From Kofleriaceae bacterium (GTDB lineage: Bacteria; Myxococcota_A; Polyangia; Haliangiales; Haliangiaceae), in the NCBI GenBank assembly GCA_018057825.1, contig JAGPCY010000016.1, positions 62,001 through 126,000 on the forward strand: a DNA stretch of 64,000 nucleotides, read 5' to 3'. The notes under the pieces are model-generated. The model was not told the origin of the DNA. It made no database searches and was given only the letters and a program-made list of their open reading frames with translations. Positions 20,384 through 40,832 of this stretch are shown piece by piece. A program made the translations under genes and the position numbers. Position 1 is the first letter of the stretch. Each line of letters starts with the position of its first letter.

Positions 20384-20538
20384 GGGGGAGGGGTTTGCTG
20401 GTGCTCACCACCCTCCGTGGTGCATGCAGACAGCGGCTGAACGCCGGTGCTCACGCCCAACCACCACCGGTGAGATCACCGACGACCCTCCCGCGATCCG
20501 GACGTTATGGGAGGGGGGCCCCAGCGAATGCTGGGGGG
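20384..20538. repeat. Hairpin element copy A
   Basis: Serial hairpins: CACCAC-CCTCC-GTGGTG (20406-20422); CGGC/GCCG around TGAAC; CGGTG/CACCG around AGAT; CCCTCCC/GGGAGGG closing a 16-nt loop; and CCCCAGC-GAAT-GCTGGGG (20519-20536). A second copy follows in tandem with an offset of 149-150 bp and is nearly identical apart from one inserted C and a different last stem. Unlike copies B and C it lacks the final GGAGGGTTTTT hairpin: GGAGGG is followed by TTTGCTGG, which begins the next copy. Confidence 0.85.
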
Positions 20539-20539
20539 A

Positions 20540-20716
20540 GGGTTTGCTGGTGCTCACCACCCTCCGTGGTGCATGCAGACAGCGGCTGAACGCCGGTGCT
20601 CACGCCCCAACCACCACCGGTGAGATCACCGACGACCCTCCCGCGATCCGGACGTTATGGGAGGGGGGCCCCGTCCGCTCCGCGGACGGGGGGAGGGTTT
20701 TTTCGAAAAACCCTCC
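20540..20716. repeat. Hairpin element copy B
   Basis: Tandem repeat of copy A. The sixth stem is CCCCGTCCGC-TCC-GCGGACGGGG (20669-20691), a 10-bp perfect hairpin replacing the CCCCAGC/GCTGGGG stem of copies A and C. Different sequence with the same pairing argues that structure is being kept. It ends with the GGAGGGTTTTT/AAAAACCCTCC hairpin. Confidence 0.85.
20692..20716. terminator. Bidirectional terminator-like hairpin of element copy B
   Basis: Perfect 11-bp stem GGAGGGTTTTT / AAAAACCCTCC with a TCG loop. The T-run is inside the stem rather than after it, so it is not a textbook intrinsic terminator. By symmetry it could act on transcripts from either side. Confidence 0.45.
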
Positions 20717-20729
20717 AAATACTACGCAA

Positions 20730-20768
20730 GGGCATTTTCGAGAAACCTTCCGGTTTCTCGAAAAGCCC
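20730..20768 (-). terminator. Long hairpin abutting the pseudo-receiver stop codon
   Basis: A 17-bp stem with a single bulged A and a 4-nt TTCC loop, built from GGGC, TTTTCGAGAAACC and its complement. It lies directly after the stop codon of the minus-strand gene 20769-21080. It probably marks the 3' end of that mRNA, as a terminator or exonuclease barrier. Confidence 0.5.
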
Positions 20769-37382: not shown

Positions 37383-39098
37383 ATGGCCCGCCGTGATGCG
37401 CGCACCCTCCGCGACGACGCGACCCGCGCCGCCGCCGAGGGCAAGCACAAGCGCGCGATCGAGTGCTACCTCGAGCTCGAGCAGCTCGAGCCCTACGAAC
37501 CCAACTGGCCCAAGCGCGCAGCCGAGACCTACCGCCGGATCGATCGCAGCCGCGAAGCGGTCGCCGCCTACGAGCGCGCGATCGAGCGCTACGTCGCGGG
37601 CGGGTTCATGGTCCAGGCCATCGCGGTGTGCAAGATCATCCTGTCGATCGATCCGGCCCACGACAGCGCCAAGCGGCGGCTGGCCGCGATCTCCGAGCAG
37701 CAAGACGGCGCGCGGTCCCAGGCCGGGGTGCTCGCCGATCGCCATCAGTCGCTGCACGGCCTGCCGGTGGTCGATCTGCTGCGGGCCTCCGGGGAGGCGC
37801 CGGTGGCGCCGCCGCCGCGGACCCGGTCGGTGACCATGCCCCCGGCGGTGACCTTCACGCCGCCGCCGCCGCCCGAGCAGGTCGACGTCGAGGCGCCCGA
37901 GTTCGTCTTGCCGTCCTCCGAGCTCGAGGTCATCGACGATCGCGATCGCTCGTCGGGCTCGATCACGATCGATCGCGGCGCCCCGCTCGACTCGGTCGAC
38001 CTGGCGGCGGTCATGCCCGGCGCCCAGCCGGCCTACACCGACGGTGAGTCAGCCGGCATCATCGTCATCCCCATCGACGACGGGCCGCTCGACGACGGCC
38101 CGTTCGACGACGGGCGGTTCGACGGCTCGAGCCCGTCGGTCGAGATCGTGCCGATGACCGACGACGCTCCCGACAGCGAGGCCGGGATCGAGGTCGAGCT
38201 GGCCGGCGATCCCGAGGAGCTGTCGCTCGACGATCTCGAGGAGGTGCCGCTTCTGGCCGAGCCGCGGCCGTACTCGGCGGCGGCGCGCCGGGCCCTGTCG
38301 GCGACCCCGCTGTTCGCGAGCCTCGCCCCCGGGGCGCTCGAATCGCTCATCGATCGGCTGACCCTGGTCGACCTGATCCCGGGCGAGGTCTTGTTCCGCC
38401 AGGGCGACCCTGGCACCGCGCTCTACGTCGTCGTCGACGGCGAGGTGGCGGTGGTCAGCGAGGGCCCGCCGCGGCTCGAGGTGTCACGCCTGGGCGCCGG
38501 AGCGTTCTTCGGCGAGGTCGCGCTGGTCACCGAGCAACCGCGGTCGGCGACCATCGAGGCCACGGCCGCGACTCAGCTCCTGGCCATCGATCGCGACGTG
38601 ATCGCCGGTCTGGTCTCCGAGCACGCCGACGTGTTGCCGGTGATCCTGCGCTTCCTGCGCGAGCGCCTGGTCGATCGGCTGGTGCGGACCCATCCGCTGT
38701 TCGAGCCCTTCGCCGACGCCGATCGCCGGATGCTGGTCAGCCGCTGGCGGTTCCTCGAGATCGAGCCGGGGACGACGATCACCCAGCAGGGGGTCAAGGC
38801 CCAGGGGCTCTACGCGCTCCTGGCCGGCCGCGCCGACGTCCTCCACGACGGCGCGGTGATCGCCGCGCTCGGCCCCGGCGAGCTGTTCGGCGAGACCTCG
38901 CTCCTGACCGGCTCGCCGTGCCGGATCACCGTGCGCTCGCGCCCCAAGTGTCTGGCGCTGTGCCTGCCGGCCGCCGACTTCCGCGAGATCATCATGACCC
39001 ACCCCCAGGTGCTGTCGTGCATCGGCGAGCTGGTCGACGAGCGCGAGCGCACGCTGTCGGCGCAGCTCTCGCCGAGCGCGCGGGCGAAGATGGTGTGA
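37383..39098 (+). CDS. TPR protein with two cyclic-nucleotide-binding domains, 571 aa
   Basis: N-terminal TPR-like repeats (about 1-90: [45 protein letters not shown]), a long acidic and Pro-rich linker (about 130-310, with [17 protein letters not shown]), then two cNMP domains. Domain 1 is about 315-430 ([46 protein letters not shown]) and keeps the Arg after the cassette. Domain 2 is about 440-560 ([39 protein letters not shown]), where Cys replaces a small residue before Arg. No DNA-binding domain. Coupled to the next gene by TGATG. Confidence 0.8.
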
Positions 39099-40402
39099 TG
39101 GGTGAGCTCGAGCGCGCGCGCTTGCGCCGCCGCCTGGCCGCCGACGCCCGGGTCGGCTGGGCGCGGGTGTGGGCCCGCGCCAAGCAGATCCTCACGACCG
39201 ATCCGTCTCGGACCGGCACCGACGATCACATCCTCGACGAGGCCGCCGAGCGCGAGCTGGCCCGGCACGCCGGCCAGATGAAGGGCGGGGTGGCCAAGGT
39301 CGCCCAGCTCCTGGCCTACACCAGCGCTGGCGCGCCGGCCGAGCTCCGGGCGCTGTGGGACGCGGCGCCGGCCGAGACCGCGGCGGCGATCGCCAGCGTG
39401 ATCGAGCGCGAGCTCGGCGCGCCACCCGAGCGGCTGTTCGCGCGCTGGGATCCTGTGCCGATCGCCGCCGCGTCGCTCGGGCAGGTTCACGCCGCGGTCG
39501 ATCACGACGGCCAGGAGCTGGCGGTCAAGGTCCAGTACCCGGGGGTGGCGGCGGCCTTGACCGCCGATCTCGCCGGCGACGGCTTCGTCCGTCGCCTGGC
39601 CGGGCTGCCGCTCGGCGAGGCGCTGTCGGCGCCGGCCCTGGCCGCGGTGCGTCGGGCGATCGTCGCCGAGGTCGACTACCGCGCCGAGGCCGACGCCCTC
39701 GAGCGGGCCGGCGCGGCGTGGGCTGACGACCCGGCGATCCGGATCCCGACGGTGGTGCGGCGCTGGTCGACGCAGCAGGTCTTGACCATGACGCGCGCTC
39801 CTGGCGTCGCGCTGGCCGAGGTCGCCGCCGATGACCGCGCCCTCCACGCCGAGATCGCGGCCGCCATCGTCCGCTTCGCCTGGGGCACGCCGCTTCGCCA
39901 CGGCTTCTTCAACGCCGATCCCAACCCCGGCAACTACCTGATCGAGGTCGGCGACCCGACGCGGGTCTGGTTCCTCGACTTCGGTTGCACCGTCGACCTG
40001 GCGCCAGCCACCGTCGCCGGCGACCTGGCGATCTGGCACGGCATCCTCGACGACGATCTGTTCGCTGGCGCCGAGAAGTTCCGCCTGGCCCTCGACGGCC
40101 TGGGGCTGCTCCGGGCCGCCACCTCGCTGTCGACCGTGGTCCATCGCGACTGGGAGCGCGCGATCGCCGCGCCGTTTTCGACCCGCGAACCCTTCACCTG
40201 GGATCGCCACTACGCTAGCGAGCTGACCACCGCCACCCGCGACGTCCTGGCCGCCGGCGGCCTCGCGCTCTCGCCCGAGGTGACCCTCTTGTGGCGCCAG
40301 CGCATGGGCGTCGCCGCGGTCCTCGGCATGCTCGAACCGCGGGCGCCGTTCCGCCGCATCCTCGCCGACGTCCTCGGCACCGGCCGCCGCGCCCTGCGCT
40401 GA
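39098..40402 (+). CDS. ABC1/AarF (UbiB-type) atypical kinase, 434 aa
   Basis: Atypical protein-kinase-like ATPase. Seen: the Ala-rich loop [11 protein letters not shown] that replaces the P-loop, the ATP Lys in [11 protein letters not shown], Glu in [10 protein letters not shown], catalytic loop [13 protein letters not shown], and metal-binding [10 protein letters not shown]. The KxGQ motif of the UbiB extension is changed to KVAQ (AKVAQLLAY), so autoinhibition by this element may differ. The family supports ubiquinone or lipid metabolism, but the substrate is unclear. No membrane segment at the C-terminus. ATG overlaps the stop of the TPR/cNMP gene. Confidence 0.85.
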
Positions 40403-40650
40403 GAGACCGAGACCGAACCCGAGTCCGAGACCGAGACCGAGACCGAGACCGAGACCGAGACCGAGACCGAGACCGAGACCGAGTCCGAGACCGAGTCCGA
40501 GTCCGAGTCCGAGACCGAGACCGAGACCGAGACCGAGACCGAGTCCGAGTCCGAGTCCGAGTCCGAGTCCGAGTCCGAGTCCGAGTCCGAGTCCGAGTCC
40601 GAGTCCGAGTCCGAGTCCGAACCCGAGACCGAGTCCGAGTCCGAGACCGG
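40403..40650. repeat. Hexanucleotide tract 5 (GAGACC then GAGTCC)
   Basis: The longest tract, about 41 units, starting at the base after the stop of the ABC1 kinase gene. GAGACC units on the left alternate with GAGTCC, including about a dozen perfect GAGTCC units in a row at roughly 40541-40618. It leads into hairpin element copy C. Confidence 0.93.
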
Positions 40651-40676
40651 CGGCTGGTGGACGGTTCGTCCGAGGT

Positions 40677-40832
40677 CACCACCCTTGGTGGTGCATGCAG
40701 ACAGCGGCTGAACGCCGGTGCTCACGCACCACCGCCGGTGGTCACACGGACGGCGGCACTCCCGCGATCCGGACGTTATGGGAGGGGGGCCCCAGCGAAT
40801 GCTGGGGGGAGGGTTTTTTCGAAAAACCCTCC
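40677..40832. repeat. Hairpin element copy C
   Basis: Third copy, 20 kb from copies A and B. First hairpin CACCAC-CCTTG-GTGGTG (40677-40693). A core from GTGGTG through GCTCACGC of about 40 bp is identical to A and B. A variable part follows with ACCACC-GCC-GGTGGT, then CTCCC/GGGAG, CCCCAGC-GAAT-GCTGGGG (40790-40807) and the terminal hairpin. It lies between convergent genes after tract 5, the same context as A/B after tract 3. Confidence 0.85.
40808..40832. terminator. Terminator-like hairpin of element copy C
   Basis: GGAGGGTTTTT-TCG-AAAAACCCTCC, identical to the one in copy B, ending 2 bp from the stop codon of the minus-strand gene at 40835. Confidence 0.45.

Follow-up and report, generated by a model that had tools for sequence, protein, structure and literature searches.

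A 64,000-nucleotide (nt) stretch of a Kofleriaceae bacterium genome (contig JAGPCY010000016.1, positions 62,001 to 126,000; the window) carries three copies of a repeat, A (20384 to 20538), B (20540 to 20716) and C (40677 to 40832), which a direct-repeat search placed in one family. A first-pass annotation of this DNA had located the copies correctly, and we confirmed its description of flanking cores of about 40 and 30 bp that are identical among the three, a variable first hairpin loop, a changed middle in copy C, and a sixth stem that reads CCCCAGC/GCTGGGG in A and C but CCCCGTCCGC/GCGGACGGGG in B. It had read the element on the plus strand, whereas in the window the element belongs to the minus strand, since the adjoining genes end toward its terminal palindrome. 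It also missed that palindrome, which closes copies B and C and is the second of the conserved hairpins, as well as the neighboring stop codon. Copies A and B form a single array downstream of a gene ending at 20769, with an extra hairpin between, and copy C lies downstream of a gene ending at 40835; copy A has only half of the palindrome. We consider it probable, at about 0.6, that the repeat is a tandem-hairpin 3'-end signal, composed of hairpins H1 and H2 and a C-rich tail (together, the module), which follows stop codons or a tRNA gene and is read with that gene. The features are as follows.

20384..20508, minus strand: type-1 body of copy A, gene-distal
20519..20536, minus strand: H2 of copy A (CCCCAGC/GCTGGGG)
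20543..20658, minus strand: type-1 body of copy B; sequence kept, no common fold
20659..20668, minus strand: C-rich tail of copy B, CCCCCCTCCC; part of the common skeleton
20669..20691, minus strand: H2 of copy B, the sixth stem of the earlier description; paired changes
20692..20716, minus strand: H1 of copy B, GGAGGGTTTTTCGAAAAAACCCTCC, gene-proximal hairpin of the A-B array; covariation of H1
20730..20768, minus strand: extra hairpin between stop codon and H1 in the A-B array
20769..21080, minus strand: gene with its stop codon ahead of the A-B array; start uncertain, the open reading frame (ORF) extending to 21422; no Pfam match at 1e-5
40663..40779, minus strand: type-1 body of copy C
40780..40789, minus strand: C-rich tail of copy C
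40790..40807, minus strand: H2 of copy C (CCCCAGC/GCTGGGG)
40808..40832, minus strand: H1 of copy C
40835..41401, minus strand: gene without a Pfam match at 1e-5, its stop codon separated from H1 of copy C by 2-3 nt

The source genome (8.89 Mb in 84 contigs) contains many more copies. The CRP-like gene of the window has its nearest match, at 79% identity, in a Myxococcales metagenome assembly, and 2 of the 80 loci kept carry a Kofleriaceae label. With copy C as the query, blastn returned 100 matches at E ≤ 0.001, far above chance, which grouped by position into 39 arrays of units arranged head to tail. Forty-eight complete units were cut out by script and aligned, with 16 of 64 anchors dropped, and 47 were used in the later alignment. 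A search of the source genome with the core pattern CCCTCCCCC, 6-18 nt, GGGGCCCCC yielded 105 exact matches, compared to 1 for a reversed control, and these matches also reveal sites with differing bodies. In the direction of the gene, the core consists of H1 (GAGGG...CCCTC; GAGGGTCTTTCGAAAAGACCCTC and variants), then H2 (CCCC, a variable inner stem, GGGG), which abuts H1 without a spacer, and the tail CCCCC[A/T]CCC, often followed by [A/G]AAACG and then the body, which in its type-1 form keeps its sequence over the 47 aligned units. Complete H1 is generally found in the gene-proximal unit of an array; the gene-distal units mostly have, as judged by eye, half of H1 only. In some units of two arrays (L038 and L015), about 200 nt of sequence with long inverted arms (GTACGTCCGATGCTCGCTCGTCGTGTAG...) take the place of the H2 tip; comparable sequence is present in eight of the loci searched, with related stretches in L014, L029, L030, L039, L040 and L041, and may represent another repeat inserted into the first.

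The arrays occupy a fixed place relative to genes. In 38 of the 39, as determined by script, the gene adjoining the terminal palindrome is on the strand opposite to the original reading and ends toward the palindrome, and in 35 of the 39 the gap between array and gene is -2 to 13 nt; where the gap is -2, the hairpin itself contributes to the stop codon. At the exception, L029, the gene caller had overlooked an ORF (...QIFTF-stop) that terminates about 28 nt away from the hairpin and was found by hand. One of the 38 arrays (L022) starts 4 nt past a tRNA-Cys gene, the protein gene being 84 nt off, and is better described as a follower of the tRNA gene, leaving 37 of 39 arrays placed by script after protein stop codons; in another bacterial family, a module (L334) also follows a tRNA gene. 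When single modules were counted on long ORFs under simple ORF rules, a sense ORF end was detected at most 60 nt upstream of 52 of 69 modules in the source genome, 53 of 57 in a congener (G003) and 13 of 40 in more distant genomes, compared to 31/690, 28/570 and 32/800 random positions, respectively. An antisense ORF end at the tail was found for 0/69, 3/57 and 1/40. Modules keep closely to gene ends within the genus and less so in distant genomes. A role as an insulator between convergent genes was rejected, since the far-side neighbor may be on either strand (16 plus, 22 minus and 1 contig end). The spacer between the stop codon and H1 at L029 is a run of TGATC repeats, and TGATC follows the stop codon at several other sites as well.

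We next consider pairing. The chain of five to six hairpins proposed in the first-pass annotation received no support over the 47 units beyond the sixth stem: RNAalifold predicted 13 pairs, and the 2 that changed on both sides were both in that stem. Among the other stems, the proposed first hairpin reached 43.6% paired cells against a shuffled mean of 39.4% (maximum, 42.4%), the middle stem 63.7% in real and shuffled units alike, the CTCCC/GGGAG stem 92.5% against 92.2%, and a short core stem 83.5% in both. The type-1 body has no common fold across these units, its drawn stems pairing like shuffles or barely better. Single copies folded on the minus strand gave z scores of -2.94 (B) and -6.06 (C) against dinucleotide shuffles, and 94 nt of copy C on the plus strand gave -4.25.

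The core behaves as a pair of hairpins. In an alignment of 43 core modules, in which three pasted rows are slightly out of register, pairing extends to 94.9% of cells versus 88.0% in shuffles, with a covariation score of 0.188 versus 0.076; slid versions pair in 70.3% or less. Other families of the class contributed 42 matches, 30 of them distinct, in which 93.5% of cells pair and the score is 0.404 versus 0.127, and for 63 mixed matches the values are 95.4% and 0.374 versus 0.105, with 177 cells changed on both sides; the latter two alignments were fitted to the model and are biased toward structure. In all three alignments, both H1 and H2 vary by paired substitutions, with outer pairs nearly invariant and inner pairs variable. 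Among 984 stem cells with distinct arms, 915 are Watson-Crick, 13 G-T, 21 A-C and 35 other, in a count whose "distant" set mistakenly included five loci from the source genome and G003 (L389, L390, L396, L397 and L403). We rejected G-U wobble as a guide to the RNA strand, as there is no excess in either direction.

The exact core pattern is present in 105 copies in the source genome and 104 in G003 but is absent from five other congeners, and a broader model, R2, identified the same two of seven genomes in the genus. Among 30 genomes of the family, model R1 matched 2, with 126 matches in one and 149 in the other, the latter count being at the ceiling because 150 candidates were scored. In the class, taken to be Polyangia, 13/289 genomes had R1 matches and 16/317 had R2 matches, the latter in 10/151 genera and four families. 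In the phylum, the exact pattern with its tail was found in 12/377 genomes, including three single matches in a fifth family; outside the class, the exact pattern occurred in 1 of the 273 genomes listed, and that match did not resemble a hairpin pair. Stem sequences vary from genome to genome on a shared skeleton, although exact-pattern and model searches favor the skeleton they come from, so that some of the constancy of the outer arms comes from the search design. The first-pass annotation had tied its proposal of a selected structure to further copies and covariation in related genomes, and the proposal survives because both were found, by repeat and model searches and as paired substitutions in H1 and H2. 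In a collection of viral contigs, the exact core pattern was present in 17 stretches (L340 to L356), which are candidates by pattern only.

The two carriers within the genus are close: the CarD-like protein of G003 is the closest relative of that of the source genome, with 97% identity, compared to 85-91% for the five other congeners, and a module follows the CarD-like gene in both. In a comparison of a sample of sites from the two genomes, 8 of 57 host genes of G003 were orthologs of the 55 source host genes compared (70-98% identity over the piece compared). One of these 55 (L032, 87 nt, CcmE) is doubtful as a host. A Pfam scan covered 50 of the 55 host proteins (L194, L198, L199, L200 and L203 were omitted), and 13 of the 50 had no match at 1e-5. 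Translation is represented by ribosomal proteins L11 and L27, IF-1, IF-2, IF-3 and EF-Ts; other hosts include RNA polymerase omega, the CarD-like protein, GyrB, GroES, ClpX, LexA and glutamate dehydrogenase. Genes for translation make up about 1% of a genome of this size, and six translation proteins among 50 hosts is well above that general share. To set the modules against the gene-end background, 400 kb of contig 72 (1 to 400000) can be used: it has no module at E ≤ 0.01, and a stem of at least 8 was present at 6/117 gene ends with a gap of at least 60 nt, versus 5/117 after shuffling. Genome G162 is unlike the source genome in this regard: over 400 kb (blocks L406 to L425, picked to include known module sites), 32/139 gene ends had a stem, 4 of the 32 being modules, versus 1/139 after shuffling, and these hairpins are strong, GC rich and mostly without an evident T-run.

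Because the module is placed directly after a stop codon or tRNA gene, it would be read with that gene, and its fixed place and direction, together with paired changes in two adjacent hairpins, implicate the 3' end of the transcript. We infer a 3'-end function on these grounds. In the proposed mechanism, H1 and then H2 would fold in succession in the RNA and set its 3' end by one of two routes. The hairpins alone could stop RNA polymerase without a U-tract, or they could block 3'-to-5' exonucleases and protect an end left by Rho-dependent release further downstream. The exonuclease barrier seems slightly more likely, since the body downstream leaves room for Rho, which is encoded in the source genome. 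In the source genome, module and body have been duplicated in tandem. Copies would have spread or been exchanged inside genomes, which could explain why genomes that share one skeleton differ in their stem sequences. Of three guesses made in the first-pass annotation, a termination device fits best in its place after stop codons and tRNA genes, its fixed orientation and its paired substitutions; what does not fit is the missing U-tract. In shape and place, the module matches V-shaped terminators without a U-tract, namely, two abutting hairpins past a stop codon.

Several observations weigh against a 3'-end signal. There is no U-tract, and a consensus scan of positions 20100 to 21500 found no intrinsic terminator; H2 is followed by a C-rich tail in the modules aligned, and a canonical intrinsic terminator was rejected. 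The excess of G-U over A-C pairs expected for a classic RNA structure is lacking (13 versus 21). In the 43 core modules, neither pairs changed on both sides (5, versus 3.2 for shuffles) nor further pair types (11 versus 9.5) exceeded shuffles, and in the 42 matches from other families, further pair types were fewer than in shuffles (14 versus 17.7). Distant genomes have a detected ORF end before only 13 of 40 modules, against the 32/800 of random positions. The module is missing from 5/7 genomes of the genus, and the other 10 of 12 CarD gene ends lack it in the stretch inspected (up to 330 nt; about 150 nt in G002), so it is not a general requirement. One copy (L202) separates groES from groEL, in an operon that full termination would interrupt; at this site, a partial terminator or stabilizer fits better than a full stop.

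It is unlikely that the repeat is a selfish palindrome resembling REP or BIME, moved by a transposase and harmless after stop codons, with any effect on RNA ends a by-product. Such an origin would agree with copy numbers above 100 in two genomes against zero in five congeners, with patchiness in the class (16/317 genomes), with genome-specific stems, and with the finding that most sampled host genes are not common to both carriers, but it sits poorly with how strictly the repeat is oriented and how closely it keeps to stop codons, and with the translation genes among the hosts. No mover was found either: the source genome lacks Y1_Tnp, all six other genomes of the genus have matches, whether carriers or not, and no module is present at 12 transposase loci of the genus. 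A RAYT-driven REP was therefore rejected. The earlier guess of a mobile palindromic element keeps its basis in copy number (over 100), patchiness among genomes and few shared sites, and loses it in the missing mobilizer, the RAYT family (Y1_Tnp) being absent from the source genome. Per genome, Y1_Tnp matches number 0 in the source genome and 1 to 17 in the six congeners.

Structure at the DNA level, such as a cruciform or protein-binding palindrome acting as a roadblock or in recombination, with pairing maintained by template switching between arms and not by an RNA function, strikes us as quite improbable, although the lack of wobble pairs leaves room for it: the stems are nearly pure Watson-Crick (915/984) without a wobble excess, and units of one array share their stem sequence, as gene conversion would produce. 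Fixed orientation and place after gene ends are easier to explain via RNA. A quadruplex on the antisense strand was also considered, but ViennaRNA did not favor one when its quadruplex option was applied to two sequences with RNA parameters only. The remaining guess, a structured noncoding RNA (ncRNA) on the plus strand built of five to six successive hairpins, is very improbable and was rejected on the 47 copies. Single copies do fold better than shuffles, but the body is a conserved sequence without conserved structure, no Rfam family matches, a scan limited to sigma-70-type sites found no promoter-like site at 20100 to 21500, and the element is positioned as the tail of a minus-strand gene.

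Where DNA uptake sequences of Neisseria and Haemophilus form terminators, these are pairs of one fixed short word, whereas the inner stems of the module vary freely via paired changes. The available text of PMC2267715 states that paired inverted uptake sequences in these genera are thought to serve as terminators; like the module, they are a genome-specific repeated sequence in inverted pairs. The same text presents a systematic set of stem-loop repeat families, including REP, BIME and ERIC, and "Myxo" is absent from its main text. REP and BIME elements, as generally described and in part in PMC2267715, are likewise on the scale of hundreds, intergenic, palindromic, often tandem and genome specific, and our repeat is multicopy, palindromic and intergenic. 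It differs in having two adjacent hairpins with a fixed direction to the gene, and from REP/BIME with RAYT in the absence of RAYT from the source genome and of modules from the 12 RAYT loci of the genus. Double hairpins without a spacer are a listed terminator class, termed V-shaped, in the portion of PMC8355165 consulted, where a quoted survey puts them at 0.1%. For Streptomyces clavuligerus, the corresponding portion of PMC8269248 describes structured ends without a U-tract, read as I-shaped terminators or Rho-dependent ends. The module resembles these V- and I-shaped terminators of GC-rich bacteria, as far as those excerpts describe them, in its hairpins right past the stop codon, two of them unspaced, without a U-tract. 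Those classes are there defined by shape only, whereas here the skeleton GAGGG...CCCTC CCCC...GGGG CCCCC[A/T]CCC recurs more than 100 times per genome, with termination predicted. The repeat combines a V-type terminator shape lacking a U-tract with REP-type spread and a skeleton of its own. Rfam 15 gave no match at the gathering cutoff in the window and only two tRNAs across 14 loci, and the literature matches listed included neither a description of the element nor a study of transcript ends in these very GC-rich myxobacteria.

The module is a well-marked, repeated 3'-end candidate at translation factor and chaperone genes that can be found by a covariance model, and its absence from close relatives provides orthologous gene pairs with and without it for comparison of read-through and mRNA stability. 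A further reading, which we hold to be rather unlikely, is that a nonautonomous repeat bearing a strong 3'-end signal settled at stop codons in a fixed orientation, crossed lineages of the class and was retained at core genes, those for translation factors, RNA polymerase omega and gyrase. If so, these bacteria owe part of their 3'-end system to a mobile repeat.

Long hexamer arrays (CCGAGT/CCGAGA and complement) lie in intergenic gaps of the window at 420-539, 5471-5542, 20208-20380, 34068-34169, 40407-40646 and 54250-54309; five of the six are between convergent genes by our own gene calls. A CCGGAG version of the hexamer array is present at some module sites in G003.

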